A DNA stretch of 42,168 nucleotides. Origin: an uncultured Armatimonadota bacterium (GTDB taxonomy: Bacteria > Armatimonadota > Fimbriimonadia > Fimbriimonadales > Fimbriimonadaceae). Of this stretch, positions 33,108 to 35,416 are shown in pieces. Each line of letters starts with the position of its first letter. Position 1 is the first letter of the stretch. Location of the stretch: positions 1-42,168 of the forward strand of contig CAIUHP010000101.1 in NCBI GenBank assembly GCA_903899015.1, read 5' to 3'. The notes below the pieces were generated by a model. The model made no database searches and was not told the DNA's origin. It saw nothing but the letters and a program-made list of their open reading frames with translations. The position numbers and the translations under genes are program-made.

Positions 33108-33830
33108 ATGAAATCCGGTATGAAATTCGCTGTCGGCCTAGCAATGGGCCTGTCCACGTTAGGTGGAATGACGACAGTCGCTTACGGACAAGATGATATC
33201 TCCGAGAAACAGATTTCTTCACTGGAGCTTGAGCAAGCTGACGTCCGGGAAGCTCTTCGCGCATTATTTAAAAACGTTAATGTGTCTTATTCAATTGCCC
33301 CTGAAGTTCAGGGCCCCGTGACGGTGAGTCTAAAGAACGTGACGTTTGAAACGGCACTTCAAAATGTTTTGCGACAAGTAGATGCCACCTACCGAATAGA
33401 AGCCGGTGTCTATGAAATTGTTAAGCGGGTGGACACAATTGGCCCCAACAAAGCTTCTGACGAACCTTCAACGGTTCCTACAACGAAGATAATCAGGCGT
33501 ATTAAAATCCGGTCTGCCGACCCCGCTTTTATAGCAATGATGATCGGTGCAAAGGAAGGAAATCAGAACTATAACATCGCACCTGAACGTAGCACGATCA
33601 ACAAAACTCCGAACGACGGCGGAGGAGGATTAGGCGGTGGCGGCTTTGGTGGCGGAGGACTCGGTGGTGGCGGCTTTGGCGGCGGTGGACTGGGAGGCGG
33701 CGGCTTCGGAGGCGGAGGTAGCTTCGGAGGAGGTGGCAGCTTTGGTGGCGGAGGCGGCTTCGGTGGCGGAGGCGGTTTCGGTGGAGGCGGCGGCTTCGGC
33801 GGAGGTGGACGAGGCGGATTTGGCGGCTAG
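33108..33830 (+). CDS. Secreted STN-domain protein with Gly-rich tail (paralogue 1)
   Basis: 240 aa. Signal peptide to about 27. STN-type domain about 36-107 (SLELEQADVREALRALFKNV... RQVDATYRIEAGVYEIVK), the fold found at the N-terminus of secretins and TonB-linked receptors. A stub resembling the start of a secretin N1 domain follows (KIIRRIKIRSADPAFIAMMIG, 127-147). From about 171 to the end is almost pure Gly with Phe/Leu (GGGGFGGGG units), ending RGGFGG. No secretin barrel or membrane segment follows, so it is a soluble exported protein. GGAGGAT gives a strong Shine-Dalgarno. First of three tandem paralogues; closest to the third. Function unknown. Confidence 0.85.
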   Translation: MKSGMKFAVGLAMGLSTLGGMTTVAYGQDDISEKQISSLELEQADVREALRALFKNVNVSYSIAPEVQGPVTVSLKNVTFETALQNVLRQVDATYRIEAGVYEIVKRVDTIGPNKASDEPSTVPTTKIIRRIKIRSADPAFIAMMIGAKEGNQNYNIAPERSTINKTPNDGGGGLGGGGFGGGGLGGGGFGGGGLGGGGFGGGGSFGGGGSFGGGGGFGGGGGFGGGGGFGGGGRGGFGG

Positions 33831-33885
33831 TACTTACCCGTCAGAGTGCGACTCTGTGCCAACTTCGCGCTAATTCACCTCATAT

Positions 33886-33924
33886 CGTGTGTATTCCCCT
33901 TGCATGGTGGGGGGAATACACACG
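33886..33924. repeat. 14-bp hairpin between STN paralogues 1 and 2
   Basis: CGTGTGTATTCCCC and GGGGAATACACACG pair perfectly around an 11-nt loop. Downstream is an A run, not a T run, so it is not a standard intrinsic terminator. It may be a processing, stability or factor-assisted termination site. Confidence 0.6.
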
Positions 33925-33986
33925 CCGCAAAAAAATCTGCGAAACGATGGTTTAGCTTATTCGTTTGACCCACGGAAGTAAGCAAC

Positions 33987-34634
33987 ATGAACAAAACCAT
34001 CAGGATCGCTTTGAGCGTGGCATTCCTCAGCACATTGATAGCCGCATTACCAAGGACCGCATCGGCGCAAGAGGATAATTCGCAAAAGCAGATCTCGTCC
34101 CTAGAATTTAATCAAGCCGACGTTCGGGAAGCCATACGGTCGCTGTTCAAGAACGTCAATTTCTCTTACTCGATCGCTCCCGAAGTTCAGGGTCCGATCA
34201 CGGCAAACCTTAAGAACGTCACTTTTGAGACCGCTCTCCAAAATGTCTTGCGGCAGGTGGACGCTACCTACCGAATCGAGGCAGGCGTCTATGAGATCGT
34301 GAAGAAGCGAGAAAATCTGACACCGAACCTGGTTAATGTCGAAGACCATGCCAGATTGGCCGGAAGCTCAACTTCGAAGATCATCCGCCGATTTAAGTTT
34401 CGTTCCGCGGACCCTCAATTTATTGCCATGATGCTAGGCGCTAATGGTGGAAACCAAAACTACGATTTAGCTCCCGAGAAAAGCACGATCGACAAAGTCC
34501 AACAATCGGGTGGTGGCCAAAATGGCGGCCAAAACAGCGGTGGGTTTGGAAGCGGTCGGAGCGGCGGAAATAGCGGCGGAACTGGATTTGGAAACAGTTC
34601 CGGAGGCGATTCCCGAGGCGGATTTGGGGGTTAG
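33987..34634 (+). CDS. Secreted STN-domain protein with Gly/Asn/Ser-rich tail (paralogue 2)
   Basis: 215 aa, the most diverged of the three. Signal peptide cut after TASA (about 27). STN-type domain about 36-107 (SLEFNQADVREAIRSLFKNVNFSYSIAPEVQGP region), then the same second-domain stub (SKIIRRFKFRSADPQFIAMMLG, 130-151) and NQNYDLAPEKSTIDK. The tail from about 173 is Gly mixed with Gln, Asn and Ser instead of near-pure Gly, but keeps the final RGGFGG. A weak GGAAG lies 9-10 nt before the ATG. The conserved ends but changed tail composition suggest the STN part and the C-terminal motif are under selection while the linker drifts. Confidence 0.83.
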   Translation: MNKTIRIALSVAFLSTLIAALPRTASAQEDNSQKQISSLEFNQADVREAIRSLFKNVNFSYSIAPEVQGPITANLKNVTFETALQNVLRQVDATYRIEAGVYEIVKKRENLTPNLVNVEDHARLAGSSTSKIIRRFKFRSADPQFIAMMLGANGGNQNYDLAPEKSTIDKVQQSGGGQNGGQNSGGFGSGRSGGNSGGTGFGNSSGGDSRGGFGG

Positions 34635-34675
34635 TTCTATCCAAACCCGAGCAAATAACCCTTAGGAGCATATGG

Positions 34676-34720
34676 CTTTGGCTAATGTTAAGGTTCTCTA
34701 AGAATTTCAAAAAGCCAAAG
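34676..34720. repeat. Inverted repeat upstream of the third STN gene
   Basis: CTTTGGCT (34676-34683) and AGCCAAAG (34713-34720) could close a 29-nt loop, followed by AAAA rather than T. It lies about 55 nt before the ATG. Possible leader hairpin or operator. Confidence 0.35.
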
Positions 34721-34774
34721 AAAACCCTCAACAGAAAACCCTGTTTGGGTGTATTTAATAATAGGAGGAGTACG

Positions 34775-35416
34775 ATGAAAACAAGTATCAAATTTGCGAT
34801 GGGTCTCTTATGCGGCCTATTTCTCTTTGGCGCCACATCATCGGTAGCCTTGGCCCAAGAGGACATTTCGCAGAAGCAGATTTCCTCGCTTGAGCTGGAG
34901 CAGGCCGACGTGCGCGAAGCGTTGCGAGCTCTCTTCAAGAACGTTAATGTCTCGTATTCGATTGCGCCAGAAGTGCAAGGTCCGATCACGGTTAGCCTCA
35001 AGAACGTCACGTTCGAGACGGCTCTCCAAAACGTACTTCGCCAAGTAGACGCAACATATCGAATTGAGGCTGGCGTTTACGAAATCATCAAGAAAGCAGA
35101 GTCCATTGGGCCTAATACCAAGTCCGATGACACGCCTGTGAAGACGGATACGAAGATCATTCGACGTATCAAGATTCGATCGGCAGACCCTGCGTTCATT
35201 GCAATGATGATCGGAGCAAAAGAAGGCAACCAGAACTACGATATCGCCCCTGAGAGAAGCACTCTCAACAAGACCCAGCAATTGGGTGGTGGTGGCGGCG
35301 GTCTCGGTGGCGGCGGCATGGGCGGCGGCGGCATGAGCGGCGGCGGTATGGGCGGCGGCTTCGGTGGTGGTGGCTTCGGCGGCGGCGGCGGTGGTCGCGG
35401 CGGATTCGGCGGCTAA
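34775..35416 (+). CDS. Secreted STN-domain protein with Gly-rich tail (paralogue 3)
   Basis: 213 aa from the ATG at 34775, chosen over an in-frame ATG at 34685 because AGGAGG lies 6 nt upstream and the signal peptide begins here (cut after SVALA, about 27). Residues 31-107 are nearly identical to paralogue 1, as is the stub KIIRRIKIRSADPAFIAMMIG. The tail (about 171-213) is Gly-rich with Met and Phe (GGGGMGGGGMSGGGM), ending RGGFGG. Together the three genes form a tandem array with one clear terminator after the last. The high identity of copies 1 and 3 points to recent duplication or gene conversion. Confidence 0.85.
   Translation: MKTSIKFAMGLLCGLFLFGATSSVALAQEDISQKQISSLELEQADVREALRALFKNVNVSYSIAPEVQGPITVSLKNVTFETALQNVLRQVDATYRIEAGVYEIIKKAESIGPNTKSDDTPVKTDTKIIRRIKIRSADPAFIAMMIGAKEGNQNYDIAPERSTLNKTQQLGGGGGGLGGGGMGGGGMSGGGMGGGFGGGGFGGGGGGRGGFGG

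Follow-up and report, generated by a model that had tools for sequence, protein, structure and literature searches.

An Armatimonadota genome with probable orphan paralogues of a predicted, separately encoded N0 subunit of its type IV pilus secretin complex

A tandem array of STN-domain genes downstream of gyrA

The window, by which we mean the whole 42,168-nucleotide stretch of DNA that was analysed, carries three adjacent plus-strand genes between gyrA (30473 to 32944) and a gene resembling those for serine beta-lactamases (35521 to 36915). The features of this array are listed below.

33108 to 33830, plus strand: copy 1, 240 aa; a signal peptide, then the N0 (STN) domain, the opening strand and helix of N1, and a Gly/Phe tail of 70 residues ending in RGGFGG
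33210 to 33425, plus strand: N0 domain of copy 1, from alignment to the modelled copy 3
33810 to 33830, plus strand: RGGFGG and stop of copy 1, a pattern match, one of the genome's four
33987 to 34634, plus strand: copy 2, 215 aa; layout as in copy 1, with a tail richer in Ser, Asn and Gln that ends in RGGFGG
34089 to 34304, plus strand: N0 domain of copy 2, from alignment to the modelled copy 3
34614 to 34634, plus strand: RGGFGG and stop of copy 2, a pattern match, one of the genome's four
34775 to 35416, plus strand: copy 3, 213 aa; layout as in copy 1, with a Gly/Met/Phe tail ending in RGGFGG
34877 to 35092, plus strand: N0 domain of copy 3, from a structure model (pLDDT about 82 to 90) whose top Foldseek match is the N0 of Neisseria meningitidis PilQ
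35396 to 35416, plus strand: RGGFGG and stop of copy 3, a pattern match, one of the genome's four
35438 to 35471, plus strand: hairpin resembling an intrinsic terminator, 14 pairs with a T-rich tail, at the end of the array

The start of copy 3 is most likely at 34775, after an AGGAGG sequence, and a longer open reading frame from 34685 is unlikely. Two minus-strand open reading frames (34441 to 35010 and 34838 to 35422) lie opposite copies 2 and 3 and are most likely shadows of the Gly-rich and conserved coding sequence.

The original prediction for this region described three adjacent genes for proteins with a signal peptide, an STN domain and a Gly-rich tail always ending in RGGFGG, and each of these elements was found in all three proteins. 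The Pfam STN family scored above its cutoff in copies 1 to 3 (E values of 5e-12, 2e-8, and 1e-10), with two overlapping STN stretches per protein that together make up a single N0 fold. The STN domains of copies 1 and 3, described as nearly identical, have N0 cores with 3 differences in 70 residues, and the stub KIIRR[IF]K[IF]RSADP recurs in all three copies. As predicted, no barrel follows the STN domain: Pfam returned no match to the secretin barrel (PF00263), a TonB plug or a TonB receptor barrel in any of the three window copies, and the domain gives way to the Gly-rich tail instead. The predicted signal peptide ends (VALAQED, VAYGQDD, and ASAQEDN) contain no Cys and hence no lipobox.

A related gene in the pil operon and its relation to PilQ

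A degenerate DNA pattern for RGGFGG plus stop matched the 4.94-Mb genome at exactly four sites, all within this family, while the reversed control pattern had no match. Three of the sites are the window copies and the fourth belongs to a copy on another contig (C30), where the gene order is pilM-pilN-pilO-pilP-[STN-Gly gene]-pilQ-aroK-aroB. Membership in the pilMNOP operon was thus seen for the fourth copy but not for the window copies, which are not linked to pil genes. The operon PilM (TIGR01175, E = 2e-59) and secretin (PF00263, E = 2e-39) were identified by strong matches; PilN and PilO, which had no Pfam match, are named from order and position only, and the PilP-like protein from weak matches.

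The identical operon arrangement recurs in relatives, including a 5.23-Mb single-contig genome. Within the order, pilQ was present in 58 of 61 genomes, 11 of which have a contig end between the small gene and pilQ; of the remaining 47 testable genomes, 46 have the small gene immediately upstream of pilQ and in the same orientation, the exception being G013. The pairing with pilQ, or the operon, was also found in other Armatimonadota lineages, and a profile built from the order matched 134 of 151 genomes of the phylum, not all of these matches necessarily being of the short-protein type. A tblastn search of phage records gave no match to the family. Contigs frequently break off within or close to the part of the small genes that encodes the Gly-rich tail (for example in G012, G019, G022, and G055), and annotation databases may therefore undercount them. 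At two loci (L053 and L057) a conserved ATGTACAATCGAC stretch with a TACAAT hexamer lies just upstream of the small gene and is possibly an internal pil-operon promoter. Corresponding loci in two genomes, L049:5831-6670 and L052:5533-6561, which have similar neighbours on both sides, encode proteins that carry two or three N0/STN domains but lack the Gly tail.

The structure model is good over N0 and poor over the N1 half (pLDDT about 40 to 70). Its N0 found its best Foldseek match in 4ar0, the PilQ entry named above, yet fold alone does not single out PilQ, because in VIA-align the N0 domains of EscC, PilQ, and XcpQ and some phage-baseplate domains tie at Z 10 to 11. The sequence profile does single it out, the N0 region of TIGR02515 (PilQ) matching copy 3 with an E value of 9e-8. 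By hhalign profile-profile comparison, the short protein aligns to residues 36 to 159 of the operon PilQ (99.0%, E = 7e-18). In a model of that PilQ, the aligned part comprises N0 together with the strand and helix that open the following domain; a helical stretch (163 to 186) and a disordered Gly-rich insertion (about 192 to 267) come next, after which that domain resumes. The short protein thus resembles the N-terminal part of a secretin and breaks off close to where PilQ has its Gly-rich insertion, and the stub that had been likened to the start of a secretin second domain corresponds to that opening strand and helix, homologous to the operon PilQ by the same alignment.

Against the PilQ profile, the N0 of the short protein outscored the N0 of PilQ itself in all four operon pairs compared (33.5 versus 21.2, 30.1 versus 14.7, 44.7 versus 22.2, and 43.9 versus 41.5 bits). 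A tree of 18 short-protein and 18 PilQ N0 domains from the same operons placed the two sets on opposite sides of one branch (support 99/96), which fits a single, ancient split before the phylum diversified, although a tree drawn from these domains without an outgroup is not proof of one. PilQ N0 (TIGR02515; 4ar0) is thus the nearest known relative by profile and by Foldseek and shares an operon context with the operon-encoded short proteins; the difference is that in Armatimonadota this N0 forms a protein of its own, in which N1 is cut short and a tail rich in Gly follows, next to a PilQ whose N0 has diverged but is retained.

Constraint on the N0 core and on the C-terminal tip

Between the window copies, dN over the N0 domain is 0.02 to 0.07, and synonymous codons are identical only at chance level, indicating that the copies are old rather than recent duplicates and that the protein is strongly constrained, with the N0 core as its most constrained part. 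On the same chance-level codon identity, gene conversion between the copies was rejected, as was selection acting to keep their DNA dissimilar. The tree of the tandem copies is weakly supported, too weakly to date triplications.

A search for homologues with an STN domain and a Gly-rich tail, proposed with the original prediction, yielded 80 distinct related short proteins, so that not all members continue into a secretin. They fall into 45 clusters at 60% identity. Arg or Lys occurs within the last six residues in 39 of the 45 clusters (4.4 +/- 1.8 expected from the same tails), and a basic together with an aromatic residue in 32 of the 45 (2.5 +/- 1.5 expected); at the very C terminus, 47% have an aromatic residue and 36% a basic one. 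The ends had been judged to be selected from copy 2, whose tail differs while the motif is kept, and the cluster counts bear this out. Slippage in the low-complexity tail does not account for them. The related expectation that the motif be conserved elsewhere held in part: literal RGGFGG is restricted to a few congeneric relatives (G005 and G002), whereas a basic and aromatic C terminus extends across the phylum. The motif is loose and is missing in some members. Paralogues within some genomes have similar ends, and shared ancestry may account for that likeness, as it may for the RGGFGG relatives.

PilN, PilO, and PilP of the same operons also have Gly-rich tails but without such a basic and aromatic tip, and the conserved C terminus is therefore specific to the short protein. 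Such tails on these three proteins were seen in most operons inspected (L048:6562-11584 and its equivalents), and most operons likewise encode a PilQ with a disordered Gly-rich insertion in the domain before the barrel, a feature absent from some lineages (L147, L149, and L151). Sorting by GlyGly-CTERM or PEP-CTERM signals was rejected, since mean hydropathy over 19 residues, taken across the final 45 residues of the 80 proteins, reached no more than 0.88, leaving no membrane helix.

The original prediction of proteins derived from secretins, free of a barrel and distinct from broken secretins agrees with these results. That the proteins end inside a secretin domain is what frameshifted or decaying secretin fragments would look like, but this reading is extremely improbable: the architecture is constant across the phylum, the N0 domains form one separate group, and protein sequences and reading frames are conserved despite saturated synonymous sites, as is the C terminus. 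A second reading holds that these are secreted matrix or surface proteins in which the Gly-rich tail does the work, in cohesion or adhesion, and N0 merely carries the tail through a secretin. A signal peptide, multiple copies, varying tail composition and the resemblance of glycine/aromatic tails to structural proteins would suit such a function. We nevertheless regard it as quite improbable, because the N0 core rather than the tail is the most constrained part, the pilQ neighbourhood is nearly constant, and the Gly-rich tails of PilN, PilO, and PilP point to a trait of the envelope machine. Among the surface, matrix and assembly roles originally offered, the evidence favours an assembly component, because the gene for the conserved family member is flanked by pilP and pilQ.

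A predicted N0 subunit of the pilus secretin complex

We consider it probable that the window genes are orphan paralogues of a predicted extra, separately encoded N0 subunit of the Armatimonadota type IV pilus secretin complex. The computed evidence for this reading consists of homology, the predicted fold, operon position, the phylum-wide pairing with pilQ, separation of the two N0 sets, purifying selection and a selected C terminus; we infer a periplasmic location, the binding partners, membership in a ring, a role for the tail and the action of the window copies on the same PilQ. The subunit would be a duplicated, separately encoded N-terminal piece of PilQ, consisting of the whole N0 plus the opening strand and helix of N1, with a flexible Gly-rich tail where PilQ itself has its Gly-rich insertion. 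Exported by its signal peptide and bearing no lipid anchor, the small protein may join its N0 to the periplasmic end of the PilQ ring.

In Neisseria, PilP contacts PilQ N0 at its first helix and strand (PMC3441751). Residues D24, R26, and F33 of the short family, which lie in and beside the helix equivalent to the PilP-binding one, are invariant. The small protein would add N0 subunits at the periplasmic mouth of PilQ. Contact would probably be made through the face equivalent to the PilP-bound face of PilQ N0, the small protein sharing or taking over the PilP contact. The tail might span or line the periplasmic vestibule, its basic/aromatic tip docking on a fixed site and so tethering subunit and secretin, and tandem copies would be extra or alternative versions with different tails. 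A more elaborate model, in which a ring of separate N0 subunits forms a mixed gate for the pili and the long, neutral Gly/aromatic tails, together with the PilQ insertion, act as a flexible vestibule seal pinned by the basic/aromatic tips and tuned by exchangeable paralogues, is speculative and in our view improbable.

A different division of labour is conceivable, in which the operon copy serves the pilus and each orphan has acquired a partner of its own, so that it now works with another secretin (of a type II-like system) or in regulation. The genome has seven secretin matches in all, and the six besides the operon PilQ are possible partners of the window copies; orphan copies also occur at unrelated loci elsewhere in the phylum. 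However, all four copies in the genome share the RGGFGG end and a near-identical N0, none of the orphans inspected adjoins another pilQ-like secretin gene, and G013 retains only orphans after loss of its operon copy. Redeployment therefore seems rather unlikely. Three large secretin open reading frames of more than 800 codons lie on contigs C48, C60, and C72 of the same genome, and those on C48 and C60, the two whose front part was read, have Gly-rich stretches there.

Copies linked to gyrA are present in two relatives, three in G013 and one in G005 (between gyrA and clpX), so that the window array derives from an older gyrA-linked paralogue. In G013, where the three gyrA-linked copies are kept and the pil operon has no small gene, a 153-base gap before pilQ (L168:7943-8096) retains a leader, ATGTACAATCGAC, which G005 and G004 have ahead of their small gene, together with what is left, in diverged form, of the tail end. 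For the stretch that extends into pilQ the score is 52, while shuffled sequences gave 32 at most, part of the 52 being contributed by the conserved start of pilQ. Judged from these sequences, the gap looks like a true deletion rather than an assembly gap, and the orphan copies may have taken over from the operon copy, which supports interchangeability but is not proof of it. This genome, with the operon copy lost and the orphan triplet kept, is a natural test of interchangeability.

Free-standing N0 domains are already known in outer-membrane complexes; an N0 protein as a phylum-wide member of a pilus operon is apparently undescribed. DotD of the Legionella Dot/Icm system (PMC2951367) and the N0-containing VirB7 of Xanthomonas (PMC3093366) are small outer-membrane-complex lipoproteins with a disordered N-terminal segment, and the short-protein N0 aligns at Z 9.2 with an N0-fold chain of the Dot/Icm outer-membrane complex. 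The short proteins share with DotD and VirB7 a free-standing N0 fold and a disordered extension, but those are lipoproteins of type IV secretion with N-terminal disorder, whereas the short proteins have no lipobox, are disordered at the C terminus and are associated with a type IV pilus. PilW of Thermus thermophilus, whose flexible Gly/Pro-rich linker runs from the secretin to the inner-membrane platform and is proposed to bridge a variable periplasm (PMC13039148), resembles them as an extra protein encoded just before pilQ with a Gly-containing flexible linker. It differs in that PilW has a GspC-HR-like domain and replaces PilP (PMC13039148), while the short protein has an N0 and a PilP-like gene is also present.

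In the open-access papers searched we found no description of a standalone, Gly-rich STN/N0 pilus protein. Judged by title and abstract, none of the few papers naming both Armatimonadetes and PilQ treats an Armatimonadota secretin, and the Fimbriimonas ginsengisoli genome paper, in the passages covered, names PilB, PilC, PilD, PilQ, and PilM and lists no N0 subunit. What had been proposed as a candidate for an undescribed, separate system would instead be an additional component of the type IV pilus, a machine already known, as the operon copy indicates. If this is true, the type IV pilus gate of an entire phylum contains an additional, separately encoded N0 subunit, which standard annotation recognises only as an STN-domain protein. 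Gly-rich segments in nearly all of the periplasmic module (the tails of PilN, PilO, PilP and the short protein, and the PilQ insertion), together with the conserved tip, would then raise the question of how a secretin is tethered or sealed, and the phylum has a cultured, fimbriated member in F. ginsengisoli.
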